DNA from: Micromonospora rhizosphaerae
GTDB lineage: Bacteria > Actinomycetota > Actinomycetes > Mycobacteriales > Micromonosporaceae
Length of the DNA: 64,000 nucleotides
Reading direction: 5' to 3'
NCBI RefSeq assembly: GCF_900091465.1
Contig: NZ_FMHV01000002.1
Coordinates: forward strand, 930,001-994,000
The position numbers were made by a program, and so were the translations under genes. The notes under the pieces were generated by a model, which did not search any database, had not been told where the DNA came from, and saw only the letters and a list, made by a program, of their open reading frames with translations. Shown in pieces: positions 2,451 through 18,825 of the stretch. How positions within the stretch are numbered: position 1 is the stretch's first letter; each line of letters starts with the position of its first letter.

Positions 2451-2981
2451 ATGGACCCTCTCCTGAGTGAGTTCGACTCGTTCGTGCGTACCCGTACGCC
2501 CGCACTGCTGCGCTCGGCGTACCTGCTCACCGGCGATCAGCACCTGGCCGAGGATCTCGTCCAGTCCGCGCTGGCCAGGACCCACCGGTCGTGGAACCGG
2601 CTGCACGACAGCGGGAACGCCGAGGCGTACACCCGCAGGACCATGTACCACCTGCAGGTTTCCTGGTGGCGCCGGCGCCGGGTGGCCGAGTCGATGCCGG
2701 GGGACCTACCCGAGCCGCGCGGAGGCGACCCGGCCGCCGACCACGCCCACCAGACCACGCTGAGGCTCACCTTGCGGGCCGCTCTGCAGAAGCTCTCCGC
2801 CAAGCAGCGGGCCGTGCTGATCCTGCGGTTCTTCGAGGACCGCACCGAGGCCGAGGCCGCCGAGCTGCTCGGCGTCACCGTCGGCACCGTGAAGAGCCAG
2901 ACCGCCAGGGCGCTCGCGAAGCTGCGCACCGTCGCCCCGGAACTTGCCGAGCTGTACGTCCTGGAAGGAACCACCCGATGA
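2451..2981 (+). CDS. SigE-family ECF RNA polymerase sigma factor
   Basis: 176 residues. Sigma region 2 spans about 5-75 (SAYLLTGDQHLAEDLVQSAL, then RRTMYHLQVSWWRRRR) and region 4 about 105-160 (LSAKQRAVLILRFFEDRTEAEAAE, then VGTVKSQTARALAKLR). The acidic tail after region 4 and the LRSAYLLTGD opening fit the actinobacterial SigE family. The ATG at 2451 has AAGGA 10 bases upstream. The stop overlaps the next start (ATGA), coupling it to a membrane-anchored propeller protein that probably controls it. No zinc-binding anti-sigma motif is encoded nearby. Confidence 0.93.
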   Translation: MDPLLSEFDSFVRTRTPALLRSAYLLTGDQHLAEDLVQSALARTHRSWNRLHDSGNAEAYTRRTMYHLQVSWWRRRRVAESMPGDLPEPRGGDPAADHAHQTTLRLTLRAALQKLSAKQRAVLILRFFEDRTEAEAAELLGVTVGTVKSQTARALAKLRTVAPELAELYVLEGTTR

Positions 2982-4114
2982 ACCACGACCGCCTCCGGCT
3001 CGACCTGGCCGCCCTGGCCGACGAGGTCACCCCGGTCGACCTGCGGGACCGGGCCCTGCGTACCTCGAGGCGGCTCGGCATCCAGCGGGCCGTCGCCACC
3101 TCCGCCGCCGCCCTGGTGGTGCTGGCCGCCGCGACCGGGACCGCGCTCGCCATCCGGCCGAACGGGCAGCCCCCCGCGCCCCAGCCGGCCGGCCCGTCGG
3201 TCACCAGCACCTGGCCCCCGGTCGAGGTCACCCCGACGCCGGCGCCCTCGCGGGCGTCCACCGAGCCGAGCGGCAGCCCCAGCACGTCGACGGCCACGCC
3301 GCCGTCCGTGCTCACCGGCACCCGGTACTACCTGGAGAAGACGTCCCCCGAGGCCCGGATTCACGCGATCCGGGGCCGCTCGGACCAGGTGGTCTACCGG
3401 ATCGCGGCCCCCACCTGGGGCTGCGAGCTCAACACCGTCACCATCTCGCCGGACGGAAAGCGGGTGGCCTGGGTGCAGGACAGCACAGACGGCGGCATCA
3501 CCGGCGTGCTCCTGCTCGGTGCGCCGGGGCAACCGTCCTCGCGCACGCTGCTGAGCGGGGTGACCTGCGTGGACAGCAACGCGCTGGTCTGGAAGGGCAA
3601 CGACCACCTGATGGTCCGCCAGCGCCTCCGCCCGGTGCTCATCGACGTGGCGGCCGGCAAGCCGGTCGGCGGCGACCCGGGCCAGGAGACCGACCGGTGC
3701 TGGTCGGTGGACGGGCGGTGGCTCGCGGCGAAGAGCGACGGCAAGCCGTACGTGACCGACGGGCAGACCACCCGCACCTTCCGCTACACGCCACCAGCGG
3801 AGGAGGCGGCGAAGTGGGGCGGCTGGCGCGCCCGCAGCGTCTCGCTGGACGGCCGATACGTCTCCATCGGCTGGGTCGGCACCGACCCGTCCCGCCGGGA
3901 CGGCAGCTTCACGGTCGTGGACACCGTCACCAGCAAGGTCATTGATCTCCCGGTCTCCGGCAAGGTCGAGAGCATCCAGTTCACCGCGGACTTTCGGGTG
4001 CTGGTGCGGCAGGCGGCCCGGATCGTGGTGCTGGACTCCGGCTTCCGCAAGCTCGGCGAGGTGGCGGAGCCGCGGGACGTGCAGAAGCTGACCCTGCTGG
4101 CCTACGTGCCCTGA
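2978..4114 (+). CDS. Membrane-anchored beta-propeller protein coupled to sigma factor
   Basis: 378 residues. A short cytoplasmic part (1-36), one membrane helix (about 37-57, ALVVLAAATGTALAI), a Pro/Ser/Thr linker (about 60-107), then an extracellular domain with repeated beta-propeller signatures such as ISPDGKRVAWVQD, SVDGRWLAAKSDG and SLDGRYVSIGWVG (WD40-like/TolB type). It overlaps the sigma gene by four bases. The short N-terminus lacks the HxxxCxxC motif of zinc anti-sigma factors, so sigma control through it is an inference from coupling. The second sigma/propeller pair at 17042-18825 has the same plan. Confidence 0.8.
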   Translation: MNHDRLRLDLAALADEVTPVDLRDRALRTSRRLGIQRAVATSAAALVVLAAATGTALAIRPNGQPPAPQPAGPSVTSTWPPVEVTPTPAPSRASTEPSGSPSTSTATPPSVLTGTRYYLEKTSPEARIHAIRGRSDQVVYRIAAPTWGCELNTVTISPDGKRVAWVQDSTDGGITGVLLLGAPGQPSSRTLLSGVTCVDSNALVWKGNDHLMVRQRLRPVLIDVAAGKPVGGDPGQETDRCWSVDGRWLAAKSDGKPYVTDGQTTRTFRYTPPAEEAAKWGGWRARSVSLDGRYVSIGWVGTDPSRRDGSFTVVDTVTSKVIDLPVSGKVESIQFTADFRVLVRQAARIVVLDSGFRKLGEVAEPRDVQKLTLLAYVP

Positions 4115-4129
4115 CCGATCGCAAAGCTT

Positions 4130-4164
4130 GGGGCCGGACGGGCACTTGTCGCCCGTCCGGCCCC
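4130..4164 (+). terminator. Strong intrinsic terminator hairpin
   Basis: Perfect 14-bp inverted repeat (GGGGCCGGACGGGC) with a 7-base loop, 15 bases after the stop of the propeller gene. Confidence 0.85.
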
Positions 4165-4305
4165 CGCGCCGCGCCTGCCGCGCTGCCCCGACTCCCATCT
4201 GCGGCGTGGGCCGCGCCACGTCCGGACGCGGCGGGCGCCCGTCGACCACCTGTGGTGCCAGAATGGCCGACACCGATGGGAACCCGGGAACCGGAGGGAC
4301 AACAG

Positions 4306-5073
4306 GTGCGCTGGCGCAGTTTCGTGGCGGTGGGCGACAGCTTCACCGAGGGCATGGACGACGCGTACCCGGACGGCACCTACCGCGGCTGGGCCGACCT
4401 GGTGGCGACCCGGCTGGCCGCCGAGGCCGGCCCGGACTTCGGGTACGCGAACCTGGCGATCCGCGGTCGCCTCTTCCCCAACATCGTCGCCGAGCAGGTG
4501 CCGGCCGCCCTGGCCATGAAGCCGGATCTGATCAGCTTCGCCGCCGGCGGCAACGACGTGCTGCGGCGGACCTTCGACCCCGCCTCCTTCGTCGCCCGCT
4601 TCGACGACGTGGTGGGCGAGCTGCGTTCCGGCGGCGCGGACGTCATCCTCTTCCGGTTCGCCGACGTGATGGCCCGGTTGCCCGGCCAGCGGCTCGTGGC
4701 ACCTCGGGTGACGTTGCTCAACCGGGTCGTGGGGGAGGTCGCGGAGCGGCACGGCGCCATCCTGGTCGACCTGTACGCCGACGACACCTACCTCAACCCG
4801 ATGCTCTGGAGCACCGACCGGCTGCACCTGTCGCCCGCCGGGCACCGGCGGGTCGCCGGGCAGGTGCTCACCGCGCTCGGGGTCGGCTGCGACGAGGAGT
4901 GGCTGATGGTGCCGCCGCACCCGGCGCCGGCCCCGTGGCTCGCCGGGCGCGCCGCCGACCTGCGCTGGGCCGGCCAGCACCTGGCACCCTGGATCAAGCG
5001 CCGGCTGACCGGCCGCTCCTCCGGGGACACGATCACCGCGAAGCGCCCGATGCTCGGCCCGGTCACCGACTAG
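4306..5073 (+). CDS. SGNH/GDSL-family hydrolase
   Basis: 255 residues with the SGNH blocks in order: FVAVGDSFTEG (block I, nucleophile Ser about residue 11), an NLAIRGR segment (block II Gly), FAAGGNDVLR (block III, Asn) and STDRLHLSPAGHR (block V, Asp/His). This supports an esterase or lipase-like hydrolase. There is no signal peptide, so it should be cytosolic. The GTG at 4306 sits 7 bases after GGAGGG; upstream in-frame starts at 4252 lack this. The substrate is unknown; related actinobacterial enzymes include acyl-CoA thioesterase-like and lipid esterases. It stands alone between a terminator and the aminotransferase gene. Confidence 0.9.
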   Translation: MRWRSFVAVGDSFTEGMDDAYPDGTYRGWADLVATRLAAEAGPDFGYANLAIRGRLFPNIVAEQVPAALAMKPDLISFAAGGNDVLRRTFDPASFVARFDDVVGELRSGGADVILFRFADVMARLPGQRLVAPRVTLLNRVVGEVAERHGAILVDLYADDTYLNPMLWSTDRLHLSPAGHRRVAGQVLTALGVGCDEEWLMVPPHPAPAPWLAGRAADLRWAGQHLAPWIKRRLTGRSSGDTITAKRPMLGPVTD

Positions 5074-5154
5074 CGGGCGGACGATCCACGCGAGTCCGTC
5101 GGACCTGAGCGCCCGGTGACCCGTTCGTGACGTAGCCGGCGGACGATCGAGGGC

Positions 5155-6450
5155 ATGCAGTTCAGCCGACGAAGCCTGCTGGGCGCGACAGCGGCTGCCG
5201 GGATAACCGGCGTGACCACGAGCTGCGAGCCGGACCGACGGGAGTCCGGCGGCACGCCCGCCTTCGACCCGGCCAGCTGGGACAGCGTACGGGCGCAGTT
5301 CGCGCTCGACCCTGGCCGGGCGCACCTGGCCACCTTCGTCTTCGCGGCCCACCCCGCGCCGGTCCGCGCGGCCGTCACCGCGCACCGGGACGGGCTCGAC
5401 CGGGACGCGGTCGGCTACCTGGCCGCCAACGAGGAACGGCTGGACGAGGCTGTCCTCCGGGGGGCTGCCGACCACCTCGACACCAGCCCGGACCAGATCG
5501 CCCTCACCGACTCGACCACGATGGGCCTCGGGCTGCTCTATACGGGGCTGCGGCTGCGGCCCGGCGACGAGGTGCTCACCACCGAGCACGACTTCTACGC
5601 CACGCACGAGTCGTTGCGGCTGCGGGCCGAGCGGGACGGGGTGACCGTGCGCCGGGTACGCCTCTACCGCGACCCGGCGGTGACCACCGTCGACGAGATC
5701 GTCGCCAACCTCGCGGCGGCCGTCACCACCCGCACCCGCGTCGTCGCGCTCACCTGGGTGCACTCCAGCACCGGAGTGAAGCTGCCGATCCGGCAGCTCG
5801 CCGAGGCGGTTCGGGCACGCAGTCCGGAGGCACTGGTCTGCGTGGACGGGGTGCACGGCTTCGGTGCCGAGGCGGTGACCCCGGCCCAGCTCGGCTGTGA
5901 CGTACTAATTTCGGGCTGCCACAAGTGGCTGCTCGGACCGCGCGGCACCGGACTCGGGTGGGGGAGTGAGCGGGCGTGGAACCGGATGACGCCGGTCATC
6001 GCCACCTTCGATCGGCGCAGCATCGGCCACTGGCTGTTCGGGGATGGTGGCGCGCCGCCAACGCCCGCGGGGCCCGCGCACACGCCCGGGGGCTACCACA
6101 CCTTCGAGCACCGGTGGGCTCTGGCCGAGGCGTTCGAGTTCCACCGGCGGATCGGGCCGGAGCGGATCGCCTCGCGGACCCGCGAACTGGCCGACCGGCT
6201 CAAGGAGGGCCTCTCCGGTATCAGCGGGCTGCGACTGGTGACGCCGCGCTCGGCCGAGCTCTCCGCCGGCATCGTCTGCTGCGACGTGACCGACCTGCCG
6301 ATCGGTGAGGCGGTGGGCCGACTCCACGCCGCCGGAGTGACCGCCAGCAGCACCCCGTACAACCCCTCCCACCTGCGGTTCGGGGCGACCATCGCGAACA
6401 GCCCCGAGGATGTCGACGCGGCGATACGGGCGGTTCGTGGGCTGGTCTGA
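5155..6450 (+). CDS. Exported class V aminotransferase (PLP-dependent)
   Basis: 431 residues. The N-terminus has a twin-arginine motif (FSRRSLLG), a hydrophobic stretch and a Cys at residue 24, suggesting Tat export and possibly lipidation. The catalytic part is a fold-type I class V aminotransferase related to isopenicillin N epimerase: the PLP lysine is K257 in ISGCHKWLLGPRGTG, preceded by the VDGVHGFG aspartate that holds the pyridine nitrogen. PLP enzymes outside the cytoplasm are uncommon but this Tat-class V family is known in actinomycetes. The substrate cannot be told. Only a weak ribosome site (GAGGG) precedes the ATG. Confidence 0.9.
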   Translation: MQFSRRSLLGATAAAGITGVTTSCEPDRRESGGTPAFDPASWDSVRAQFALDPGRAHLATFVFAAHPAPVRAAVTAHRDGLDRDAVGYLAANEERLDEAVLRGAADHLDTSPDQIALTDSTTMGLGLLYTGLRLRPGDEVLTTEHDFYATHESLRLRAERDGVTVRRVRLYRDPAVTTVDEIVANLAAAVTTRTRVVALTWVHSSTGVKLPIRQLAEAVRARSPEALVCVDGVHGFGAEAVTPAQLGCDVLISGCHKWLLGPRGTGLGWGSERAWNRMTPVIATFDRRSIGHWLFGDGGAPPTPAGPAHTPGGYHTFEHRWALAEAFEFHRRIGPERIASRTRELADRLKEGLSGISGLRLVTPRSAELSAGIVCCDVTDLPIGEAVGRLHAAGVTASSTPYNPSHLRFGATIANSPEDVDAAIRAVRGLV

Positions 6451-6474
6451 GCTTTGCCGCGTACCTTGGGCTTC

Positions 6475-7377
6475 ATGCCAGTGCCCAGCGATCCGAATCC
6501 CCGCCTCAAGTCGTACGCCGACCCGCAGCGCCTGGTCACCACGGAGTGGCTGGCCGAGCACCTCGGCGACGAGGGCCTCGTCGTGGTGGAGTCCGACGAG
6601 GACGTGCTGCTCTACGACACCGGTCACATCCCGGGCGCCGTCAAGGTCGACTGGCACACCGAGCTGAACGACCAGGTGACCCGGGACTACCTGGACGCGA
6701 AGAGCTTCGCCGAGCTCTGCGCCGCCAAGGGCATCGGTCGGGACGACACGGTGGTCTTCTACGGCGACAACTTCAACTGGTGGGCCGCGTACGCCCTCTG
6801 GGTCTTCTCGCTCTTCGGCCACCCCGACGTGCGGCTGCTCGACGGTGGCCGGCAGAAGTGGATGGCCGAGGGGCGCGAGCTGACCAAGGAGAAGGTGACC
6901 CGCCCGCCCGCCGAGTACCCGGTGCCGCAGCGGAACGACGCGCCGCTCCGGGCCTTCCGCGAGGAGGTGATGGCGCACATCGCCGCCGGTCGACCGCTGG
7001 TCGACGTCCGCTCGCCGGGCGAGTACACCGGCGAGATGCTGCACATGCCGGACTATCCGCAGGAGGGCGCGTTGCGCGGCGGGCACATCCCGGGCGCGGT
7101 CAACAAGCCGTGGAAGTCCGCCGCGAACGACGACGGCACCTTCAAGTCCCCGGACGAGCTACGCGCCATCTACGCCGATCAGCTCGGGTTGAGCCCGAGC
7201 GACGACGTGATCGCGTACTGCCGGATCGGGGAGCGGTCCAGCCACACCTGGTTCGTGCTGCGGCACCTGCTGGGCTATCCGCAGGTGCGCAACTACGACG
7301 GCTCGTGGACCGAGTGGGGCAACCTGGTCCGGGCCCCCGTCGCGAGGGGCGACCAGCCGGGCGGCATCGCCGGCTGA
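6475..7377 (+). CDS. Thiosulfate sulfurtransferase (tandem rhodanese)
   Basis: 300 residues with two rhodanese domains. The N-terminal one (about 15-135) is inactive-looking, with FYGDNFNW where the active loop would be. The C-terminal one (about 160-285) has the six-residue active loop CRIGER, with the persulfide-forming cysteine after VIAY. This is the standard architecture of actinobacterial sulfurtransferases (CysA/SseA type), which move sulfane sulfur to cyanide or other acceptors. The ATG at 6475 lies 8 bases after TACCTT, so the mRNA may be leaderless; a start at 6454 would run into the preceding stop region. Confidence 0.93.
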
Positions 7378-7395
7378 CCGCCGTCCCGGTCCAGT

Positions 7396-7428
7396 GAACG
7401 GCCGTGGTCACGCTGACCGCGGCCGTTC
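7396..7428. terminator. Bidirectional terminator between convergent genes
   Basis: Inverted repeat with GAACGGCCG arms extended by GGTCA/TGACC and only one wobble pair, 3-base loop. It lies between the convergent rhodanese and TetR genes and so probably serves both. Confidence 0.85.
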
Positions 7429-7429
7429 G

Positions 7430-8014
7430 TCATGCCGAGGCCGGGGTCGGGCCGGTCAGGTAGCGCTGGACGGTCGGGGCGACCCAGGCGACCAGCTCGG
7501 CCGGGTCCAGGTCGACCACGGGCGGCAGCCGGATGATGTACCGGGTCAGCGCGAGCCCGAGGATCTGGCTGGCCACCAGCCCGGCCCGGCGGGGGGCCTC
7601 GGTCGGGTCGGCGAGCCCGGCCATCGCGGCGGTCAACTGCTCGGCGAAGATCGCGCGCATCCGTTCGGCCGCCCCGGGGCTGGTGGTGGCCGTGCGGACC
7701 AGCGCCGCCAGCGTCTCGTCCCCCTCCCAGCGGTCGAGGAAGTGCCGCACCAGCAGTTCGCCGAGCTGCTCGCGGGGTAGCTCAGCCAGCGCCGGCAGGC
7801 GCAGGTCGAACTCGGCCGCCGCGGCGAAGAGTCCCTCCTTGCTGCCGTAGTAGCGCATCACCATGGACGGGTCGATCCGGGCCTCGGCGGCGATGGCGCG
7901 GATGGTGGAGCGGTCGTATCCGTCGGCGGCGAACCGCTCGCGGGCGGCGCGCAGGATCGCGGCGCGGGTGGCGTCCGAGCGGCGGGCGCGGGTCGGTGCC
8001 GGTTCCGAAGTCAT
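7430..8014 (-). CDS. TetR-family repressor
   Basis: 194 residues. The N-terminal helix-turn-helix (about 14-60) reads ATRAAILRAARERFA and IAAEARIDPSMVMRYYGSKE; the C-terminal ligand domain is typical in length. It is divergent from the FAD monooxygenase at 8122, and the 107-base gap holds several CCAAC/GTTGG half-sites (8014-8102), so it very likely represses both itself and the monooxygenase, relieved by an unknown aromatic or polyketide-like ligand (inference). Confidence 0.92.
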   Translation of the reverse strand: MTSEPAPTRARRSDATRAAILRAARERFAADGYDRSTIRAIAAEARIDPSMVMRYYGSKEGLFAAAAEFDLRLPALAELPREQLGELLVRHFLDRWEGDETLAALVRTATTSPGAAERMRAIFAEQLTAAMAGLADPTEAPRRAGLVASQILGLALTRYIIRLPPVVDLDPAELVAWVAPTVQRYLTGPTPASA

Positions 8015-8102
8015 GCCAACAACTGTAGGCCAACACGCGTTGACATCGCCATGCCGGTCGACCTACTGTTGTCAACAAGCGTTGGCAAACAACTGTTGGC
8101 AC
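8014..8102. promoter_or_regulatory. Multi-site TetR operator region
   Basis: Two imperfect palindromes with the same arms: GGCCAACACGCGTTGACA at 8028-8045 and TGTCAACAAGCGTTGGCA at 8070-8087. Two further half-site pairs sit at the edges, TGCCAACAACTGT at 8014-8026 and ACAACTGTTGGCA at 8090-8102, as inverted copies of each other. The common arm is TGyCAAC/GTTGrCA. The outer copy overlaps the TetR start codon. Confidence 0.75.
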
Positions 8103-8121
8103 TCGCTTCCGGAGGTGGGCC

Positions 8122-9276
8122 ATGCTGCCCGAAAGCACGGACGTCCTGGTGGTCGGGGCCGGACCGGTCGGCCTTGCGACCGCGGTGACCCTCGCCCTGC
8201 GAGGTGTCGAGGTGACGCTGGTCGACCAGGCGGAACAGTCCCCGCTGACCTCCCGCGCCGCCGTCGTGCACGCGTACACCCTGGAGGTGCTGGACCGGAT
8301 CGGGGTCGCCGCATCGCTGGTCGAGCGCGGGGTACGGGCGCCGCGGTTCACCGTCCGCGACGGCGACCGGACGCTGCTCGTCGCCCGGTTCGACACACTG
8401 CCGACCCGCTACCCGTACGCGCTCATGGTGCCGCAGTCGGTCACCGAGGCGGTGCTCACCGAGCGGCTGACCGCGCTTGGCGGCCGGGTGCTGCGGCCGC
8501 ACCGGTTGACCGAGCTGAGCCGGGACGACACCGGCGCGCTGGCCCGCTTCGCCGACGGCAGCACCGTCCGCGCCCGGTACGTGGTCGGTGCCGACGGCAT
8601 GCACAGTACGGTCCGGGGGCTGGCCGGCATCGGCTTCAGGGGCCCGGCGGACGGCGGCGAGTCGTTCACCCTGGCCGACATCCGGATCGACAGCCCGCTG
8701 CCCCGTGACGAGGTGGTGCTCTTCTTCGACCGGCGGGGAATGCTGGTCTGGGCGCCGCTGCCGGACGGCGTGGTGCGGGTGGTGGCGGCGGTGGACGACG
8801 CCCCCGAGCACCCCGACGTGCCGTTCGTCCAAGCCCTGCTCGACCGGCGCGGACCGCGCCGACCGGGGCGGATCACCGAGGTGCTGTGGGGCTCCCGGTT
8901 CCGGGTGCACCACCGCGTCGCCGACACCTTCCGGGTCGGGCCGGTGCTGCTCGCGGGCGACGCCGGGCACGTGCACAGCCCGGCCGGCGGGCAGGGCATG
9001 AATCTCGGCCTGCGCGATGCGGTCGCCCTCGGCACCGCCCTCGGCGACGTGGTCGCCGGCGGCTCCGACGCCCTGCTCGACGCCTACGCCGCGCAGCGCC
9101 GTCCAGCCGCCGAGGAGGTGGTCCGCTTCGCCGGCCGCCTCACCCGGCTGGCCACCGTCCCGCAGACCCGACGGCCGGCCCGCAACCTGCTGCTCCGGCT
9201 GCTCTCCGCCGTGCCGGCGGCCCGGCACCGGCTGGCCATGCGACTGTCCGGGCTGGAGCAGCGGGCCGCCGGTTAG
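8122..9276 (+). CDS. FAD-dependent aromatic monooxygenase
   Basis: 384 residues of the PHBH/UbiH-like flavoprotein hydroxylase family. The dinucleotide fold is at the N-terminus (VVGAGPVGLATAV), the DG motif is VVGADGMHS in the middle, and the second FAD motif is LLAGDAGHVHSPAGGQGMN near residue 275. It is shorter than the 500-residue polyketide hydroxylases because it lacks the thioredoxin-like C-terminal domain. The ribosome site GGAGGTGG precedes the ATG. Being divergent from a TetR gene with shared operators, it is probably induced by its own substrate and may detoxify an aromatic compound or antibiotic; the substrate is unknown. Confidence 0.9.
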   Translation: MLPESTDVLVVGAGPVGLATAVTLALRGVEVTLVDQAEQSPLTSRAAVVHAYTLEVLDRIGVAASLVERGVRAPRFTVRDGDRTLLVARFDTLPTRYPYALMVPQSVTEAVLTERLTALGGRVLRPHRLTELSRDDTGALARFADGSTVRARYVVGADGMHSTVRGLAGIGFRGPADGGESFTLADIRIDSPLPRDEVVLFFDRRGMLVWAPLPDGVVRVVAAVDDAPEHPDVPFVQALLDRRGPRRPGRITEVLWGSRFRVHHRVADTFRVGPVLLAGDAGHVHSPAGGQGMNLGLRDAVALGTALGDVVAGGSDALLDAYAAQRRPAAEEVVRFAGRLTRLATVPQTRRPARNLLLRLLSAVPAARHRLAMRLSGLEQRAAG

Positions 9277-9285
9277 GCTGCGCGG

Positions 9286-9855
9286 ATGGCGCAGGTGTGG
9301 CGCGACTGGGGGCCGGTGCTGGTCGCGGTGCTGGCCGGGCTGCCGGTCGCGGCCCTGCTCACCGGCGTACTGGCCGCCGGTCGGCGGGACGCCCGGCCGA
9401 TCGGGGAACGGTGGCGGCGCAGCGTCGCCGAGGTGGGCGCGGTGGCGGGGACCGTCCCCTGGGTGTGGATGATCCTCACGCCCCGCCCGGCGCCGCGGCA
9501 GGTCGACCTCGTGCCCCTGCGCGACCTGGCCGACCTGCTGGTCGGGCCGCCGGCCACCGTCGTGGTGCAGGTGGTCGGCAACCTGCTGGTCTTCGCCGCG
9601 CTGGGCTTCTTCGCCCCGGTACGCTTCGCCGCCCTGGCCGGTGTCGGCCGGCTCTTCCTGCTCGGCGCGGCGGGCTCGGTGCTGGTCGAGTCGTTGCAGT
9701 ACCTGCTCGACCTCGGGCGGGTCTCCTCGGTCGACGACGTGCTGCTCAACGCCGCGGGCGCAGCGCTGGCCGGCCTGCTGTCCCGACCGGGGTGGGCGGG
9801 GCGGCGGTCGGCTCCGGCGCGGCTGCCCGCAGCGTCCGCCACGCCCCGACCGTGA
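9286..9855 (+). CDS. VanZ-like membrane protein
   Basis: 189 residues with four to five hydrophobic segments and the VanZ signatures: a DLVPLRDL motif after helix 2, a GNLLVFAALGFFAP helix, and ESLQYLLDLGRVSSVDDVLLNAAGA. VanZ proteins lie in the membrane and some relate to teicoplanin resistance, but most have unknown roles. A TAGGCT -10 element at 9274-9279 overlaps the previous stop and lies 6 bases from the ATG, so the mRNA may be leaderless. The last 110 bases overlap the 3' end of the MFS gene on the opposite strand. Confidence 0.85.
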   Translation: MAQVWRDWGPVLVAVLAGLPVAALLTGVLAAGRRDARPIGERWRRSVAEVGAVAGTVPWVWMILTPRPAPRQVDLVPLRDLADLLVGPPATVVVQVVGNLLVFAALGFFAPVRFAALAGVGRLFLLGAAGSVLVESLQYLLDLGRVSSVDDVLLNAAGAALAGLLSRPGWAGRRSAPARLPAASATPRP

Positions 9856-11194: not shown

Positions 11195-11821
11195 GTGGCG
11201 GTGGAACAGCAGGCGCGCGGCGCGGCGAACGGCACGAACGGTGCGGGCCGACGGCGGTCCCGGCGGGACGAGATCCTGGAGATCGCGGTCGGCCTCTTCG
11301 CCGCCCGCGGCTACCACGGCGTGTCGATGGACGACATCGGCGCCGCCGCGGGGGTCACCGGTCCGGCCCTCTACCACCACTTCGCCGGCAAGGAGGCCAT
11401 GCTCGCCGCCGCGCTGATCCCGGTCAGCGAGGGGCTGCTCGCCGGCGGCCGGGAGCGGGCCGCCAACCACCCGAACGACCCGCGCGGGACGCTCGAGTCG
11501 CTGATCGACTTCCACGTCGACTTCGCGCTGGCCAACCCAGCGGTGATCGCCCTGCACCTGCACGAGCTGGACCGTCTCCCCGACGAGCCGCGCCGGCGGA
11601 TCCGCCGGCTTCAGCGGCTCTACGTCGAGGAGTGGGTGACCGTGCTGACCGCGCTGCACCCGGGCCTGCCCGACGGCGAGGCGCGAGTGCTCGCCCACGC
11701 CGCCTTCGGTCTGATGAACTCGACCCCGTTTCTCGGTGGCGAGGTGGACCGACGCCGCCGGGCCGAGCTGCTGCGCGGCGCGACGCTCGCCGCCCTGCTG
11801 GCGCCCACCGATCCGGCCTGA
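11195..11821 (+). CDS. TetR/AcrR-family regulator
   Basis: 208 residues. The helix-turn-helix lies at about 22-68 (RRDEILEIAVGLFAARGYHGVSMDD and VTGPALYHHFAGKEAML motif parts). The C-terminal domain contains HLHELDRLPDEPRRRIRRLQ, similar to TetR regulators of acyl-CoA or fatty-acid genes in actinobacteria. A -10 element TAGGCT at 11182-11187, 7 bases before the GTG start, indicates a leaderless mRNA. The biotin carboxylase gene follows 83 bases later on the same strand with a 60-bp repeat between them; co-regulation is possible but not shown. Confidence 0.9.
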   Translation: MAVEQQARGAANGTNGAGRRRSRRDEILEIAVGLFAARGYHGVSMDDIGAAAGVTGPALYHHFAGKEAMLAAALIPVSEGLLAGGRERAANHPNDPRGTLESLIDFHVDFALANPAVIALHLHELDRLPDEPRRRIRRLQRLYVEEWVTVLTALHPGLPDGEARVLAHAAFGLMNSTPFLGGEVDRRRRAELLRGATLAALLAPTDPA

Positions 11822-11840
11822 CACGCCGCGTCGGGCTTAA

Positions 11841-11900
11841 CGCGTGTTAAGAAGGGGCCCCGGCTATACACCAGGCGTTAAGAGGGGGCCCTTCCTTGCA
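11841..11900 (+). repeat. 60-bp dispersed GTTAAG/GGGGCCC repeat, copy A
   Basis: The element has two direct GTTAAGA-GGGG-CCC units about 33 bases apart and ends in CTTCCTTGCA, four bases before the ATG of the biotin carboxylase. A second copy is at 61621-61680 in opposite orientation. By hand, 42 of 60 positions match without gaps. Confidence 0.8.
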
Positions 11901-11904
11901 GAAC

Positions 11905-13272
11905 ATGATCGAGTCGCTGCTGATCGCCAACCGGGGCGAGATCGCCCGCCGGATCATCCGTACCGCCAAGCGGCTTGGCATCCGTGCGATCGCGGTGCAC
12001 TCGGAGGCCGACGCCGGCCTGCCGTTCGTGACCGAGGCCGACGAGGCGGTAAATGTCGGCCCGGCCAACCCGGCGCAGAGCTACCGGAACGTCGAGGCGA
12101 TCCTCGCCGCCGCCAAGTCCACCGGCGCGCAGGCGATCCACCCGGGCTACGGCTTCCTCTCCGAGAACGCGGACTTCGCCCGTACCGTCGAGGCCAGCGG
12201 CCTGATCTGGGTCGGGCCCGGCGCGGACGCGATCACCGCGATGGGCGACAAGATCAACGCTCGGAACCTGATGGCGGCGGCCGGCGTCCCGGTCGCGCCC
12301 GGCACCACCGACCCGGCGGCCGACCTGGACGCGGCCGTCGCGGCCGCCGCGGAGATCGGCTACCCGGTGATGGTCAAGGCCGCGGCCGGTGGCGGCGGCA
12401 TGGGCATGGGCGTGGCCAACGACGAGGCCGCGCTGCGCACCGAGTACGACAAGGTCCGCGGGTTCGCCGAGCGGATGTTCGGCGACGGCTCGGTGCTGAT
12501 CGAGCGGTACTTCCCCCGGGTGCGCCACGTCGAGGTGCAGATCCTCGGCCTGGCCGACGGCCGGGTCGTGGCCCTCGGCGAGCGGGAGTGCTCGGTGCAG
12601 CGGCGCAACCAGAAGCTGGTCGAGGAGTCCCCGTCCCCCGCGGTCTCCCCGGAGCTGCGCTCGCGGTTCCTGGCGGCCGCGGTCCGGGCGGGTGAGGCGG
12701 TCGGCTACCGCAACGCTGGCACGGTCGAGTGTCTGTTGGTCCCGCGTCAGCGGGACTTCGAGGGCGGTGGCCCCGGCACCGAAGAATTTTTCTTCCTGGA
12801 GATGAACACCCGGCTCCAGGTGGAGCACCCGGTGACCGAGCTGGTCTACGGGGTGGACCTGGTCGAGGAGCAGCTGCGGGTGGCCGCCGGTCTGGCCCCG
12901 ACCTTCGACCCGGCCGCGCTCGCCCCGCGCGGGCACGCCATCGAGCTGCGGATCAACGCGGAGGACCCGAAGCGCTTCCTCCCCGGCCCGGGCGCGATCA
13001 CGACCTGGAACGAGCCCACCGGTTCGGGGGTGCGGGTCGACTCCGGCTACGTCGTCGGCAACATGGTCACCCCCTTCTACGACAGCCTGATGGCAAAGCT
13101 GATCGTTAGCGGGGCGACCCGCGAGGAGGCGGTGGAGCGGGCGAAGGCCGCGGTGGCCCAGTTCGAGATCGCCGGCCCGAAGAACAACCTCCCCTTCTTC
13201 GCCGAGCTGCTGGAGAACGCGGAGTTCCTCTCCGGCGACTACGACACCGGCATCGTCTCCCGCATGCGCTGA
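11905..13272 (+). CDS. accC: Acetyl-/acyl-CoA carboxylase, biotin carboxylase subunit
   Basis: 455 residues of a biotin carboxylase: LIANRGEIARRII at the N-terminus, ATP-grasp glycine loop VKAAAGGGGMGMG (about 160), ERECSVQRRNQKL (carboxylation site region), EMNTRLQVEHPVTE (Mg/ATP) and the C-terminal domain. It uses ATP and bicarbonate to carboxylate biotin. It stops before any biotin carrier domain, unlike the roughly 590-residue actinobacterial alpha subunits, and no MKM biotinylation motif appears downstream. ATG at 11905 is preferred; an in-frame TTG at 11896 lies inside the repeat. It may work with the beta subunit at 21159 or others elsewhere. Confidence 0.92.
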   Translation: MIESLLIANRGEIARRIIRTAKRLGIRAIAVHSEADAGLPFVTEADEAVNVGPANPAQSYRNVEAILAAAKSTGAQAIHPGYGFLSENADFARTVEASGLIWVGPGADAITAMGDKINARNLMAAAGVPVAPGTTDPAADLDAAVAAAAEIGYPVMVKAAAGGGGMGMGVANDEAALRTEYDKVRGFAERMFGDGSVLIERYFPRVRHVEVQILGLADGRVVALGERECSVQRRNQKLVEESPSPAVSPELRSRFLAAAVRAGEAVGYRNAGTVECLLVPRQRDFEGGGPGTEEFFFLEMNTRLQVEHPVTELVYGVDLVEEQLRVAAGLAPTFDPAALAPRGHAIELRINAEDPKRFLPGPGAITTWNEPTGSGVRVDSGYVVGNMVTPFYDSLMAKLIVSGATREEAVERAKAAVAQFEIAGPKNNLPFFAELLENAEFLSGDYDTGIVSRMR

Positions 13273-13278
13273 CCGGAG

Positions 13279-13313
13279 GCGGCGTCCCCGGGGTTGCCGC
13301 CCGGGGACGCCGC
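13279..13313 (+). terminator. Strong terminator hairpin
   Basis: Perfect 14-bp inverted repeat (GCGGCGTCCCCGGG) with a 7-base loop, immediately after the biotin carboxylase gene. Confidence 0.85.
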
Positions 13314-13355
13314 GTGGTCGCCGGCTGCTCGCCGAGCTGGGACCAGGTGCGTCCG

Positions 13356-14549
13356 TCACAGCCCGGCGAGAGCCGTGGTGGGCGCCAGCCGGCTCGCCCG
13401 GATCGCCGGGTAGAGCCCGGCGACCGCGCCGATCAGCAGGGTTGCCGCGACGCCGCCGGCCATCCCCCAGGCGGGCACCACCGTGGGCCAGCCCTGGCTG
13501 TACGCGTAGAGCCCGGTGATCCCGATGCCGACCAGCGTGCCGCCGGTCCCGCCGAGCGCGGAGAGCAGCAACGACTCGGCGAGGAACTGGACCCGGATCT
13601 GGTGCCGGGTGGCGCCGAGTGCCCGACGCAATCCGATCTCGGCGCGACGCTGCAGAACGGAGATCACCATGGTGTTGGCGATGCCGACCCCACCGACCAG
13701 GAGCGCGACGGCGCCGAGCCCGAGCAGCAACCCGTTGAGTGCGGTGTCGGTGGCCTGCCGGGCGGCCAGCGCGTCGGAGGGGCGGGACACGGCCACCTCG
13801 TTCGGTGCCGGTGGGTTGGCGGTGCGGCCCAGCACCGATCGCACCGCCGCGACCTGACTCTCCGCGGCACGGACGTAGATCCGGGTCGGACGGCCGTCGA
13901 AGTCCAGGTACTGCCGGGCCGCCTGCCAGCCCACCAACGCCGCCGAGTCCAGTTCCTCGGCCAGCGGTACGGGCGCCAGGATCCCGACCACGACGAACCA
14001 TTCACCGCCGAGCCACACCCGGTATCCCACCCCCGGCACGTCCAGCCGCTGGGCCGCGGTGGTGCCCAGCACTACCGTGGGGAAGGCCGCGGTCGCGGCC
14101 GTGAACCAGGAACCGGCGTGGACCGTCCCGCCGACGGTGGCGAGCAGGTCCGACCGGGCGGCGAGCACCGCGATGCTGCTCGTCTGGCCGGCCGGCACGT
14201 GATCATTCCGGTAGACGGACCGCTCGATCGCGGCGGTCGCGCTGACCGAATCCACCGGCCCGATCCGGTCGACCATGACTACCGACTCCTCGGGCAGGAC
14301 GGCCTTCTGCCCAGTCCGGGTCTCGCCCGGAGCCGCGGTGAGCAGGTTGGTGCCGAGCCGGTCCAGCGTCCGGTCCAGTTCGGCGCGGCTGGAGGTGGAG
14401 ATGCCCACCACCGACAGCATCGCCGCGATGCCGATGGCGATGCCCAACGCGGAGAGGAACACCCGCAGCGGATGGGTTCGCAGCCCGGTCGCGCCCAGCC
14501 GGGCCATGTCGGCGGGGGTCAGCCGACCGGGTCTCAGCCTCCCCGTCAC
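13356..14549 (-). CDS. MacB-type ABC transporter permease
   Basis: 397 residues: one N-terminal membrane helix (about 27-50, [19 protein letters not shown]), a large extracytoplasmic MacB periplasmic-core domain (about 50-265), and three C-terminal helices of the FtsX/MacB fold, with [18 protein letters not shown] as the coupling segment and [14 protein letters not shown] at the end. The start overlaps the ATPase gene by four bases (GTGA). In Gram-positives such permeases, with an ATPase and an HlyD-like adaptor, act as mechanotransmission exporters for peptides or lipids. It is the last gene of the sigma-led operon. Confidence 0.93.
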
Positions 14550-15241
14550 GACCGGACCGCCGGCAGCGAGCCCGAATCGTGCACCACGCGGCCGTCGCGC
14601 AGCATGATCCGCCGCGGCAGGTCGGCCGCGAGCTGCCGGTCGTGGGTGATGACCACGACCGTGGTGCCGAGGGCGTGCAGGTCGCGCAGCAGCGCCAGCA
14701 CCGACGCGCCGGAGGCGGAGTCGAGGTTGCCGGTGGGCTCGTCGGCGAGCAGTAGAGCGGGCTCGCCGACGACCGCCCGGGCGATCGCCACCCGCTGCCG
14801 CTCGCCCCCGGACAGCTCGTGCGGCCGGTGATCGAGCCGGTGGCCGAGACCGACCCGGACCAGTGCGGACTCGGCGCGCCGCCGCCGGTGCCGGAGGGGT
14901 ACGCCGGCATAGAGCAACCCGTCGGCGACGTTGTCCAGCACCGGCAGGCCGGCGGCTAGGTGGAACTGCTGGAACACGAAGCCGATCCGGCGGCTGCGCA
15001 GGGCGGACAGCTCCCGGTCGGTGAGGGACGAGACGTCGTGCCCGTCGATGCGGACCGCCCCCGACGACGGGCGGTCGAGCGTGCCGATCAGGTGCAGCAT
15101 CGTGGACTTGCCGGACCCGGAGGGGCCGACGACGGCGACGAGTTCGCCGTAGCCGATGCGCAGGTCGACCTCACGCAGGGCGGTCACCCCGCCCGGATAG
15201 GTGCGTGACACACCGGACAGCTCGACGACGTGTCCGCTCAT
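14546..15241 (-). CDS. MacB/LolD-type ABC transporter ATPase
   Basis: 231 residues with Walker A ([12 protein letters not shown], about 36-47), Q-loop ([17 protein letters not shown]), signature [14 protein letters not shown] (about 140), Walker [14 protein letters not shown] and the H-loop (VVITHD). It powers the permease encoded next. ATG at 15241 overlaps the stop of the adaptor gene (ATGA), so adaptor, ATPase and permease are translated as a coupled set. Confidence 0.96.
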
Positions 15242-16365
15242 CCGGGCACCCCCACCGACAGCCCCTCGGTCAGGCCGTCGCCCTGCACCTCGACCCGCCC
15301 TTCGGCGAAGAGTCCCACCTCCACCGCCACGATCCGGGTGCCGCCCGGATCGGTCACTTCCAGGCCGTAGCCGCCTTCGGTGAGGGCCAGCAGCGCGGTG
15401 ACGGGAACGGTGAGCACCTTCTTGCGCTCCTGCGCGACGTACCGGACGTCGACCGAGGCGCCGGCCAGCCCACCCAGCGCCTTCTGATCGGGGATGGCGA
15501 TGGTGACCTGAACGGCTGCCGCGCCGGTGCCGGGGTGCTCGGGATCGGGTGGTGTCTGGCCGCCCGACGCAGCGGGTGTGGGCGGGCCGATGGCGGTGAC
15601 CTGCCCGGCCACCGAGGTGCCGGTGGGCAGGGTCACCGTGACCTTGGCGCCCTTCGCCGCCCAGGCGGCCTCACCGGCCGCCGCGGACACCGTCACCATC
15701 CGGGTGTTGCCGGTGTACGACAGCACGTCGCCGGTCGCGCTCGCGCCCACGCGAGCGAGCCGCTGCGCGATGCGGACCGGACCCGGGGTGTAGATCACCC
15801 GGTCCCGGTCGACCGTGCCGGTCTCCGGAACCTCCAGGTCCTTCTGCCAGCGCTTCACCGCGTCCGAGGTGCTGGCGGAGAACTCCTCGTCCACGGTGAA
15901 TCCGCGATAGCCGAGGGCCGCCAGATTTCGTTCGAACTGCCGCACGTCCGAGCCCTGCACGCCTGTGGTCAGCGGCCGGTACATGGGCAGGAAGCCGTAC
16001 AGCAGCACCACCGGCAGCTCGTCGGCGCGCAGCAGGGCCTCGCCGCGCCGGACGGTGGTCCCGACATCGGGCAGCCAGGTCACCGTACCGGTGGCGGTCG
16101 AGGTCAGCGGTGCGGCCGGCCCGTACCCCAGTTCGCCGGCCAGCGTCACGGTCTTGACCAGCGTCTGCCGAGTCACCGTGGCGGTCGCGGCAGGTCCGGT
16201 GCGGCGCGGGACGGCCTGGTCCGCGCCGCGACCGCCGAGGCCGAGGGTCGCGGCGCCGGCCACCGCCAGGGTCGTGAGCACCAGTCCGGCCCCCGCCACG
16301 GCCCGCAGTCGCCGTCGTGCCGGCCGGCTGCGGGGCCGCTCGGTCGAGTCCATCCGCCCGCTCAT
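15238..16365 (-). CDS. HlyD-like adaptor with peptidoglycan-binding domain
   Basis: 375 residues. A basic N-terminus, one membrane helix or signal anchor (about 22-48), a short barrel segment ([23 protein letters not shown]), then a PG_binding_1 domain at about 135-185 ([18 protein letters not shown], then [14 protein letters not shown]), followed by beta-barrel/membrane-proximal domains. It should link the MacB-type transporter to the cell wall, as membrane-fusion proteins do in related Gram-positive systems. It overlaps both neighbours by four bases. Confidence 0.88.
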
Positions 16366-16964
16366 CCTTTTGCGGTCGAGTTCGGATCGGGGGTGGTCGG
16401 TGGCTTGCCGTCGAGGACCGGATTGCAGATCTGGCCGGCCCGGAACTCGGCTGCCGCCTGTTGCTCACTTATCTGGCCGCTGCCGGTCTCCCGCGGCCAG
16501 TTGCCGTCCGGGCCCGGGTCGGGGAAGTCCGGTAGACCGTTGTCCCGCATGCACTGGGCGTAGGCGCGGCGGTGCACGATCTCCTCCGCCGTCCACACCG
16601 CCTTCTCCTCCAGTTCCTCCGGAACCGGCATGTTGTACTTCATGCACGTCATCTGAGCGGCCGTCCATTTCGGGTCGGCCTTCTTCGGCGCACCGGGCGC
16701 ACGTAGGTCGACGAAGCCCTTGGCGTCCGGATCCGGCAGGTCGAAGCCCTGTTCCCGCAGACACTTGACCCACCGGCGTTGCGCTTCGACGTACTGGGCG
16801 ACGGCCCCGCCGGTGCCGGCCGACTGCAAGGCTCTGGTCCCCGGGCTGCCGGCCGTGGCCACGCCCGGCGCTTTGTCCTCTCCGCCGCACCCGGCGAGTG
16901 CCAGGATCAGTGCGGCCGTCCCCAGGCCGCCGGCGAGTGGCCGCTGCCAGCGTGGATAGATCAT
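16362..16964 (-). CDS. Lipoprotein with duplicated Cys-Pro-Asp motif
   Basis: 200 residues from the ATG at 16964. The signal peptide ends in the lipobox LALAGC. The mature part holds two copies of a similar motif, KCLREQGFDLPDPDAKG near residue 67 and QCMRDNGLPDFPDPGPDG near 140, plus two more cysteines (MTCMKYN and GQICNP), suggesting an internal duplication and disulfides. An in-frame start at 17009 would place arginines oddly before the signal. Related lipoproteins occur beside HlyD/MacB sets in actinobacteria (from memory). It overlaps the adaptor gene (ATGA) and probably serves as an extracellular partner of the transporter. Confidence 0.85.
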   Translation of the reverse strand: MIYPRWQRPLAGGLGTAALILALAGCGGEDKAPGVATAGSPGTRALQSAGTGGAVAQYVEAQRRWVKCLREQGFDLPDPDAKGFVDLRAPGAPKKADPKWTAAQMTCMKYNMPVPEELEEKAVWTAEEIVHRRAYAQCMRDNGLPDFPDPGPDGNWPRETGSGQISEQQAAAEFRAGQICNPVLDGKPPTTPDPNSTAKG

Positions 16965-17041
16965 TCCTTTTCCTCTCATTTCGGGGTGCGAGGGGGCGAC
17001 ACGCGTCATGGCAGCGCGTCAACGCCCGGGGTTGGAGATCG

Positions 17042-18289
17042 TCAGCGGTTGGTGACCGGCGACCAGTGCCAGCCGTCGGTGGAGCCGTACAGCACGTTGT
17101 CGGGGTAACCGATCGCGTAGAACCAACCGTCTCGCGTACGGCGGATCGGGCCGGCCGTGGCCGGCAGGCCAGCCAGCTCGACCATCCGGTACGCGCCGCC
17201 GTCGCGGGCCGCCCAGTAGCGGTAGGCGAAGTTCTGGCGGTCCTCCGGCTGGAAGAGCACGTGGGTGCCGTCGGCGGCGACGAATGACCCGTATCCGTTC
17301 GTCCCGTGCGGGATCTCACCGGTATCCGTGAGCCGCTGCCAGCCGTCCTTGGTGGTACCGCCGTTGAGGCGATAGACCGCCAGGACGCGCTCGCCGCTGA
17401 CCACGGCGTACACCGTCTTCCCGCCACCGTCCACCGCCAGCGACAGCGGCTCGCAGCCCGCGCTCGGGCAGGACGGCGCGTCCCGGAAGACATGGGTGGC
17501 CCAGGTGCGACCGGCATCCGCGCTCACCGCGACCGCGGGTCGGCCGGTTGCCGGTTCGCGGCCCGGTATCCAGAGCCGGCCGGACAACTCGTCGATCCGC
17601 AGGCCATCCGGCTGCAACGTCAGGGCCGGTTGACGGGACAGGGGCGCGACCCGGTGCGACGCCGCGTCCACCGCCTGCATCGTGCAGGACGGCCCCGCCG
17701 TCTCCGGCCAGCAGATGGCCGTGCCACCGTCCGGCACCGCGTCCACCGCCGGCGCCTCCTGCGCCTTGCTCCAGTGGCGACCGCCGTCCGTGCTGATCAT
17801 CAGGCTGGCCGTGGCGGCGCCCGGCTGATCCGGCTGCGCGGCCCTGATCAGGACATCGGGACCGAGCACCGCCATCGCGCCGAGCCGCATCAGCGTGCCC
17901 CGGTCGGTCCAGGTGCGGCCGCCGTCGTCGGAGCCCTTCAGTTGGGCGACAGACTTGTCGCACGTGCTCGGCGTGGTGCAGGTCAACAGCAGGTAGAGGT
18001 GCTTCGCGTCGGCGGCGTCGACCCACTGCAACCGCTGTCCGGGAAGCGGGCTGGCGCTCGTCGGCGGGGTGCTCCCGTCCGCGATCGGCAGTTCGTCGAC
18101 CGAAGGCCGGGCCGTGGCCAGCAACGACGCGGCCAGTACGGCGATCGCCGCGACCGCCGAGATCCCCGCCACCGCCAGTCGCCGGCGGCGCCATTGACGG
18201 CGACCTGCCGTGTACACCTCGTCCGCCAGCAGGCGGCTCGGCGGCGACGATTCCGCCGCCTCCTCGAACAACTCACGCAGCCCGGTCAT
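17042..18289 (-). CDS. Membrane-anchored BNR/Asp-box propeller protein coupled to sigma factor
   Basis: 415 residues. Cytoplasmic segment of about 37 residues (LRELFEEAAESSPPSRLLADEV start), a basic RRQWRRRR patch, one membrane helix (about 39-62), a linker, then an extracellular propeller with Asp-boxes: SDDGGRTWTD, STDGGRHWSK, SADAGRTWAT and STDGWHWSPV. BNR/Asp-box propellers occur in sialidases and photosystem assembly factors; no sialidase catalytic set is seen. The start overlaps the sigma stop by four bases (ATGA). It likely restrains the sigma factor or passes a surface signal to it, which is inference. Confidence 0.82.
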   Translation of the reverse strand: MTGLRELFEEAAESSPPSRLLADEVYTAGRRQWRRRRLAVAGISAVAAIAVLAASLLATARPSVDELPIADGSTPPTSASPLPGQRLQWVDAADAKHLYLLLTCTTPSTCDKSVAQLKGSDDGGRTWTDRGTLMRLGAMAVLGPDVLIRAAQPDQPGAATASLMISTDGGRHWSKAQEAPAVDAVPDGGTAICWPETAGPSCTMQAVDAASHRVAPLSRQPALTLQPDGLRIDELSGRLWIPGREPATGRPAVAVSADAGRTWATHVFRDAPSCPSAGCEPLSLAVDGGGKTVYAVVSGERVLAVYRLNGGTTKDGWQRLTDTGEIPHGTNGYGSFVAADGTHVLFQPEDRQNFAYRYWAARDGGAYRMVELAGLPATAGPIRRTRDGWFYAIGYPDNVLYGSTDGWHWSPVTNR

Positions 18290-18825
18290 GCCCTTCCCTC
18301 CGTAGCGCCGGCGAGGGCGGGCACGGCATCGCCCAGAATCTGGCGCAGCGCGGCGAGACCCCGCGCCGTCTGGCTCTTGACCGTGCCCTCTGAGCAGCCC
18401 AGCGCGGCGGCTGTCTCGGCCACGTCCAGCCCCTGGTAGAACCGACAGACCAGGGTCACCCGTTGGCGGGGCGGCACGTGGCGCAGCGCCTGGACGAACA
18501 CCATCCGGCGGGTCGTCGTCTCCGCGTCGTCGTCCGGGCCGGCCCGGTCCGGTGTTTCGGCGACACTGCGCTCGCGGCGCCGCCACACCCGCCGGGTTTC
18601 GGACAGGTAGGTCCGGACCAGGCAGGTCCGGACGAACGCGTCCAGCGCCTCCGGGTCGCGGATCCGGTGCCAGCTTGCGGCGACCCGGATGAACGCGGCC
18701 TGGGTGAGGTCGTCCGCCCAGTGCCAGTCCCCGCACATCAGGTAGGCGGTACGCCGGACCACCTCGCGCCGGGCAGCGAAGTAATCGCTGAACTGGCGGC
18801 GGCCCTCGTCGTCATCGCTTCGCAT
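18286..18825 (-). CDS. SigE-family ECF sigma factor
   Basis: 179 residues with region 2 (RRTAYLMCGDWHWADDLTQA, about 23-44) and region 4 (LRHVPPRQRVTLVCRFYQGL and CSEGTVKSQTARGLAALR, about 113-165). It opens a minus-strand operon reaching 13356, in which all junctions overlap by four bases except a 77-base gap after the propeller gene. It is a paralogue of the sigma factor at 2451 and, like it, is followed directly by a membrane propeller protein. Self-regulation of the operon is likely but no -35/-10 element was recognised. Confidence 0.93.
   Translation of the reverse strand: MRSDDDEGRRQFSDYFAARREVVRRTAYLMCGDWHWADDLTQAAFIRVAASWHRIRDPEALDAFVRTCLVRTYLSETRRVWRRRERSVAETPDRAGPDDDAETTTRRMVFVQALRHVPPRQRVTLVCRFYQGLDVAETAAALGCSEGTVKSQTARGLAALRQILGDAVPALAGATEGRA

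Follow-up and report, generated by a model that had tools for sequence, protein, structure and literature searches.

The nearest tested counterpart of the system reported here is Tt-RpoE1/Tt-TolB of Thermoanaerobacter tengcongensis, in which a TolB-domain protein is encoded within 2 bp behind an extracytoplasmic function (ECF) sigma factor. In Tt-TolB an N-terminus of 39 residues leads into a single membrane domain (residues 39-61); residues 1-39 bind Tt-RpoE1 in the yeast two-hybrid system, Tt-TolB inhibits transcription in vitro, and Tt-RpoE1 activates its own gene in vitro (PMC3397946). We analyzed a stretch of 64,000 nucleotides from Micromonospora rhizosphaerae (NZ_FMHV01000002.1, positions 930,001-994,000, forward strand; here called the window), which holds two gene pairs, modules A and B, each composed of a SigE-family sigma factor gene and a gene for a membrane protein, partner A or B, with a short cytoplasmic tail and a predicted extracellular propeller. 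Each module is likely to be an autoregulated signaling line with a single membrane helix, the partner acting as a membrane anti-sigma factor. The T. tengcongensis system is similar in that an ECF sigma factor is combined with an adjacent TolB-domain partner having a short tail and one membrane segment; it differs in being a single system of a Firmicute, the likeness is one of layout, and the accessible text of PMC3397946 makes no mention of exchangeable ectodomains. With this precedent of a 39-residue sigma-binding tail the mechanism itself is not new; the novelty may lie in the scale and in the exchange of sensors.

Anti-sigma domains of classes I, II, and III have a dual interface with sigma4 and sigma2; the class I domain (ASDI) has four helices and about 101 residues on average, and domains shorter than 50 amino acids were removed from that survey as possible class II (PMC7406223). 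The ASDI factors RseA, RsiW, and RskA thus share the dual interface (PMC7406223), whereas tails A and B have fewer than 40 residues and no zinc motif. In the class II pair CnrH/CnrY of Cupriavidus metallidurans, the first of two helices lies on sigma4 and the second on sigma2 (PMC7406223), a pattern that covariation suggests for the tails described here as well. To our knowledge, CnrY carries no propeller. ECF57 also couples a sigma factor to a WD40-like propeller, but its repeats form a C-terminal extension of the sigma factor itself, whereas two genes and a membrane partner are present here (PMC8999054). Streptomyces SigE-CseABC has a SigE-family sigma factor as well, but its control is transcriptional, by a two-component system (PMC8999054, PMC13251363). 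Actinoplanes missouriensis has 11 SigE-family sigma genes and no Cse genes, with no word on partners in the accessible text (PMC13251363), and PMC10733313 deals with a system of a different kind. No publication on the tail family described below was found in a search whose coverage did not extend to the surveys likeliest to mention such partners (Casas-Pastor 2021, Huang 2015). By sequence, the modules are putative membrane anti-sigma systems whose short domain resembles class II and whose sensors differ. Their genes are the following.

2451..2981, plus strand: sigma factor A, SigE family (TIGR02983, 183.1 bits).
2978..4114, plus strand: partner A, with a short cytoplasmic tail, one membrane helix (residues 33-51, Kyte-Doolittle), a Pro/Ser/Thr-rich linker, and a TolB-type propeller.
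17042..18289, minus strand: partner B, with a predicted two-helix tail, one membrane helix, and a BNR/Asp-box propeller.
18286..18825, minus strand: sigma factor B, SigE family (TIGR02983, 151.4 bits; all-helical structure model with a predicted local distance difference test score [pLDDT] of 78).

A preliminary description of the window had already assigned both sigma factors to the SigE family, and both indeed exceed the curated TIGR02983 cut-off of 141.55 bits. The ATGA overlap between sigma gene and partner gene that it had pointed out is present in both modules, and its estimate of a tail of fewer than 40 residues with one membrane helix agrees with our Kyte-Doolittle scan, in which the first predicted membrane helix begins at residue 33 in partner A and 38 in partner B. 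The cytoplasmic segments are therefore 32 and 37 residues long, within the class II range of fewer than 50. The absence of the zinc anti-sigma (ZAS) motif was likewise borne out: reading by eye found no HxxxCxxC in either tail and Pfam zf-HC2 matched neither partner, while the ECF partners at two further loci of this genome (L024 and L028; L and G denote sampled loci and genomes) did match. A ZAS was ruled out on these grounds, and so was an ASDI of four helices and about 100 residues, only 32-37 residues being available before the membrane helix. What had to be corrected was the label "two copies": sigma factors A and B are 37% identical and the partners have no detectable similarity, which makes the modules paralogous, with unrelated sensors. 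No strand had been given; module B lies on the minus strand. Partner B was modeled from 19 sequences (pLDDT 80 and predicted template modeling score 0.74 for the whole). The model begins with two helices of low confidence (pLDDT 53-68), one at 3-13 and one at 22-43 that extends into the membrane helix, and goes on to an all-beta body; the tail alignment shows an amphipathic pattern.

The pairing is kept in other genomes, as a survey of the kind proposed in the preliminary description showed. A partner was counted when an open reading frame (ORF) started between -35 and +60 of the sigma stop, had its first predicted membrane helix at residue 23-76, and lacked HxxxCxxC, with no limit on the number of membrane helices. 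Loci sampled by their sigma gene formed two sets, one of 180 untruncated, unique loci (183 read, 3 truncated) and one of 108 (119 read, 1 truncated, 10 duplicates). A short-tail partner stood at 154/180 and 103/108 of them, respectively, or 257/288 together, whereas the same rule was satisfied at 19 of the 155 ends of ORFs of at least 200 amino acids in the window (its own sigma genes included), so that the linkage exceeds chance. Among the 257 partners, 222 have one predicted membrane helix, 34 have two, and 1 has four; the median tail length is 41 residues (30-50 in 239), and the start lies at -4 from the sigma stop, giving a 4-base start-stop overlap, in 189. Ten of the 26 misses of the first set still hold a recognizable tail on reinspection. 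In the 7.18-Mb genome of M. rhizosphaerae itself, 22 best SigE-family loci (at least 83.9 bits) were read, and 18 of them, including all 11 above the cut-off, have a short-tail partner, with tails of 32-69 residues and one predicted membrane helix (two in L025). The other four have zinc anti-sigma partners (L024 and L028), a long cytoplasmic part (L026), or no partner (L027). Fourteen of the 22 loci cluster at 0.66-2.03 Mb of the 7.15-Mb contig; one of the genome's modules (L018, G000:C2:990300-996500), whose SigE-type sigma factor scores just below the cut-off (140.8 bits) and whose membrane partner has a 44-residue tail, lies 1.3 kb past the end of the window.

The sigma factor was found at an E value of at most 1e-40 in 15/60 genomes across the phylum and 24/25 of the family, and at 1e-42 in 27/40 genomes of the class-level set, while none of the 14 named control genomes had a match in the phylum, family, or class search. 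Within the family set the number of matches ranged from 0 to 27 per genome and was at least 10 in 13 genomes. Partner queries against 61 family genomes gave matches in 27 (partner A) and 29 (partner B), many of them confined to the tail and membrane helix (residues 1 to about 85). A SigE sigma gene lies directly upstream in 18/19 loci of propeller-peptide candidates, the 19th being a contig edge. For 58 partner-fetched loci from other genomes, the sigma stop falls between -60 and +330 of the match start in 43. The remaining 15 comprise four matches that begin inside a partner ORF directly behind the sigma gene (L073, L074, L075, and L082), two loci with the sigma gene directly upstream in a frame without a nearby stop that continues past the partner start (L045 and L063), two contig edges (L065 and L076), a broken frame (L054), a locus of no clear class (L087), a sigma remnant (L060), and four sigma-less, lipoprotein-like cases (L030, L042, L043, and L057). 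In L045 and L063 the gene order is retained and the usual overlap is missing. Twenty-seven loci were also inspected for natural sigma-propeller fusions; in the seven flagged by length (L090, L096, L098, L102, L104, L107, and L108) no membrane helix was predicted behind the tested point, and thus no fusion was found.

The tails of these partners form one family with a predicted two-helix layout. Aligned, they follow the pattern L-R-x-h-L/F-x-x-h-A, a Pro-containing linker, D-L-A-x-x-V-h, and, ahead of the membrane helix, a segment rich in Arg, with two columns 99% hydrophobic. A profile was built from 179 tails alone; the M. rhizosphaerae genome, window included, and the loci obtained with partner B as query contributed none, while relatives of partner A stayed in. 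Searched against 325,830 bases (the window plus L116-L134) containing 22 sigma loci, it returned 14 ORF segments at an E value of at most 0.01, every one right behind a SigE sigma gene, among them module A (3e-9) and module B (4.7e-7); the first other match had an E value of 0.012. With 14 matches for 22 sigma loci, the profile misses some tails. No Pfam or NCBIfam model fired on the shared tail at an E value of 0.001, and no family occurred in more than 7 of 87 surveyed partners, so that the tail has no model in either database at this threshold.

We then asked whether tail and sigma factor covary, using 337 sigma/tail pairs (effective number, 293; residues in module B numbering). The strongest tail-sigma couplings in direct coupling analysis (DCA), written sigma residue first, are L125-F8, V111-A11, A50-G29, G132-R5, and A49-G29, followed by S13-A22, D14-E24, R20-L21, and T105-E13, with membrane-helix couplings such as A63-V40 interspersed among the strongest pairs. 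In the sigma B model, residues 13-20 form the first helix and 44-50 belong to the second, while 105, 111, and 125 lie in two sigma4 helices and 132 in a loop; mapped in this way, the coupled residues pair tail helix 1 with sigma4 and helix 2 with sigma2. This geometry accounts for 16/20 top DCA pairs and 18/20 top pairs by mutual information (MI), about 50% being expected. The MI was compared with 100 shuffles each, free or confined within 20 or 60 sigma clusters: the mean of the top 10 values after average product correction was 5.83 against shuffle maxima of 3.32, 4.26, and 5.26, respectively, whereas that of the membrane helix, a control of the same ancestry, was 2.91 and stayed inside its nulls. 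In a DCA comparison with 62 shuffles within 60 clusters, the top 10 mean was 4.20 (shuffle maximum, 3.63) and 15/20 top pairs fitted the geometry (null mean, 9.8; maximum, 13); the top 10 mean of the membrane-helix columns, for which there is no null of their own, was 3.44 versus 4.25 for the tail. A smaller DCA with 233 pairs pointed in the same direction (14 and 14 shuffles); I46-Q32 and D98-S44, which ranked there, were dropped after leaving the top 25 with 337 pairs. Asp at sigma position 132 occurs together with Arg at tail position 5 in 185/337 pairs. When tails were matched to sigma factors within genomes, the cognate took first place in 79/155 cases, where 15 would be expected and the membrane-helix control reached 18. 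The covariation suggests that helix 1 touches sigma4 and helix 2 touches sigma2, in the way that anti-sigma factors have been found to contact their sigma factors. The preliminary description had staked its reading on linkage and on tail-sigma contact: the linkage is conserved, and contact, as judged by covariation, is indicated.

Relatives that have no sigma gene offer a natural experiment. It covered those TolB-type propellers of L029-L058 whose N-terminus could be read; cut pieces in L030 and L038 and fragments in L051 were excluded. The tail is present in all 15 propellers with an upstream sigma gene (the window's own included), while all five sigma-less ones (L030, L033 second copy, L042, L043, and L057) have a signal peptide plus Cys and no tail; the lipobox was called by a script pattern in four and by eye in L043. 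The sigma-less, lipoprotein-like propeller of L030 is also listed as L030/L056. Such a twin, resembling a secreted version of the sensor, adjoins the sigma module in G045 and G044 and lies about 3 kb off in G051. In L060 (upstream of 1501), a partner B homologue, 52-54% identical, is intact and the sigma gene is reduced to its end, a sequence picture of sigma loss.

The mechanism we propose for both modules is that the tail is a two-helix anti-sigma domain. Its helix 1 would dock on sigma4, and its helix 2, which passes into the membrane helix without a break, would bind the first two helices of sigma2. Docking at two sites would hold the sigma factor at the membrane and keep it from RNA polymerase. 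The propeller outside the cell would be the sensor, a ligand or a change in the envelope freeing the sigma factor, which would then start transcription of its own operon at a GCAACC-N17 promoter; in module B that operon would additionally supply a lipoprotein and a MacB-type exporter. Several results weigh against this proposal. The modeled tail of partner B has the low pLDDT given above, and 16/180 loci of the first set remain without a recognizable tail partner after reinspection. The largest single DCA coupling (4.75) is not beyond the maximum of the strictest null (4.95), the largest MI value (8.41) barely exceeds its own null maximum (8.35), and the 18/20 fit of the MI pairs exceeds the free null (maximum, 16) but is reached within 20 and 60 clusters (maxima, 19 and 20). 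Cognate matching falls to 28/155 (control, 17) with training sigma factors below 45% identity and fails below 40% (12/155; control, 21); because it fades without close relatives, its signal mostly reflects subfamily relationships.

Against the anti-sigma proposal one may set the view that the partner is a mere target of the sigma factor, an exported propeller whose long basic N-terminus serves as a signal anchor and which is co-transcribed without touching the sigma factor. Sigma factors are often co-transcribed with their targets, which counts in favor of this view, as do the Arg-rich N-terminus, reminiscent of a signal n-region, and the further exported or envelope genes in the run of module B. 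It is nevertheless an unlikely explanation, as the tail pattern is conserved within a narrow range of lengths, the tail profile is specific for sigma neighbors, the tail covaries with the sigma factor and the membrane helix does not, and a lipoprotein-like signal replaces the tail in the five sigma-less relatives. Equally improbable, in our estimate, is that the tail binds the sigma factor as a membrane tether, chaperone, or coactivator instead of an inhibitor. Covariation has no sign, and RskA appears in the title of one paper as a dual activator-inhibitor of SigK (PMC7509140); set against this, the covarying sigma2 and sigma4 faces resemble those blocked by anti-sigma factors (PMC7406223), and the nearest tested system, Tt-TolB, inhibits (PMC3397946).

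The sigma factors could, finally, be under other control, two-component or transcriptional, with the partner a vestigial neighbor. SigE of Streptomyces coelicolor is indeed controlled by CseBC (PMC13251363, PMC8999054), and some of the highest-scoring SigE-family sigma factors (L089, L103, L164, and L189, in genomes G083 and G147) stand without a tail partner and are possibly Streptomyces-like SigE under such control. For the modules studied here we hold this to be very improbable, since the partner is kept across the sampled genomes, with the 4-base overlap in 189/257, too regularly for a vestige.

The outside parts of the partners differ widely. The two propellers are of different types, as the preliminary description had it: a profile combining partner A with nine relatives matched TolB in the PDB (E value, 1.5e-13), and one of partner B and nine relatives matched BNR sialidases (9e-9) and YCF48 (0.0013), in line with the repeated S-x-D-G-G-x-x-W boxes of partner B. 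Single sequences scored below the Pfam cut-offs (PD40, 14.8/20.9 bits; BNR_2, 25.0/31.4 bits). In a structural search with the partner B model, the best hits by E value were sortilin chains, with YCF48 also listed, and the best TM-scores among the 50 hits listed were those of PLL-type lectins (0.54-0.58 by target length; 0.58 for a PLL2 lectin). The 19 named relatives of module B are presumably all Micromonosporaceae, going by genus names, one being known only as a metagenome-assembled genome of that family.

Elsewhere in the M. rhizosphaerae genome, ectodomains above curated cut-offs are LytR-CpsA-Psr (LCP; L012), PD40 (L010), and HAF repeat (L011); at L012:1143-2201 the sigma-linked tail is fused to the LCP domain, an outside part of the cell-wall ligase type. 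Among 87 partners chosen by their sigma gene from L191-L290 (88 read, one cut at a contig end dropped; E value, 0.001), Pfam recognized PD40 in 7, the THOC3 propeller model in 3, Germane and Gmad2 in 2 each, and PASTA, PKD, PKD_4, and Big_7 in 1 each, and NCBIfam recognized TolB and CU044_5270 in 5 each and two further families in 1 each; most of the ectodomain sequence is unrecognized. By sequence assignment the partners belong to many paralogous modules with TolB, Asp-box, HAF, LCP, PASTA, Germane/Gmad2, PKD, and mostly unrecognized ectodomains. The modular surface-sensing system of the preliminary description gains from the conserved linkage, from the differing outside parts, and from the anti-sigma-like layout and covariation of the tail, while its scope, two propeller copies, was too narrow for a collection of paralogs with both propeller and non-propeller ectodomains.

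Each sigma gene is preceded by a promoter-like element that had been overlooked.

2374..2401, plus strand: putative autoregulatory ECF promoter of module A, GCAACC-N17-CGTCT.
18843..18872, minus strand: putative promoter of module B, GCAACC-N17-GCACCTA.

Elements of this kind are conserved: CAACC or CAACG lies upstream of 144/179 sigma genes, concentrated 60-105 bases ahead of the sigma domain, and CAACC-N14..18-CGTC lies upstream of 40/180, compared with a shuffled mean of 1.1. CAACC-N17-GCACCT is found in 20/46 upstream regions of loci fetched with partner B, some strains being present twice. The exact module B element has a single match in the 7.18-Mb genome, and its uniqueness suggests a local, self-contained regulon. 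No regulon emerged for module A: its promoter pattern had 8 matches against 9 for a backwards control, and a looser form in the window was at chance level (2 found, 1.38 expected). Several -10 elements (CGTC/T, GCACCTA, and CGTG..TAG) occur behind the common CAACC-type -35 element, and these differences could possibly insulate the promoters of paralogous lines from one another.

The surroundings of the modules contain the following further features.

4130..4164, plus strand: strong hairpin with a 14-bp stem and no T run (-41.2 kcal/mol for 4115-4180; z, -4.05).
16362..16964, minus strand: lipoprotein-like gene of operon B (by sequence; behind the module in L116, L117, L118, L121, and L122).
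15238..16365, minus strand: membrane-fusion-like protein with PG_binding_1, overlapping the preceding gene.
14546..15241, minus strand: ATP-binding cassette (ABC) transporter ATPase (FtsE/LolD/MacB type), overlapping the preceding gene.
13356..14549, minus strand: ABC transporter permease (MacB_PCD plus FtsX), overlapping the preceding gene.

Given the hairpin after partner A, operon A probably consists of sigma A and partner A only. Module B stands at the head of a minus-strand run of six genes with an ABC exporter, which the preliminary description had also passed over; the gap between partner B and the lipoprotein-like gene is 77 bases, and a scan of window positions 13000-19100 found no sigma-70 promoters or T-run terminators. 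The lipoprotein-like gene encodes two Cys-containing stretches, each leading into a PDP-type motif, and has no Pfam match. The downstream part of operon B is retained in 4 of the 19 named module B relatives (L116, L117, L118, and L121) and partly in L122; behind the others, tblastn gave no match in stretches of at most 7 kb (far shorter for L123 and L132).

Taken at the level of the phylum, the modules point, with somewhat better than even probability in our judgment, to a plug-in receptor family of actinobacteria in which one unannotated two-helix docking module, mostly of 30-50 residues, would be combined with many unrelated outside sensors. About half of the Micromonosporaceae genomes searched would then run at least 10 parallel membrane-to-promoter lines, insulated by coevolved sigma/tail contacts and by differing -10 elements behind a GCAACC-like -35 element; where the sigma factor is absent, the tail would be absent too and the sensor made as a lipoprotein. 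If this is true, many "SigE family" sigma factors that now have only a name would share a mode of control open to testing, and receptors whose outside domains differ greatly could be found by the sequence of their tail. It would likewise provide short sigma-binding peptides for circuit design and would make membrane sensing in actinobacteria (of the cell wall, of glycans, and in exporter control) testable by swaps of tails and ectodomains.

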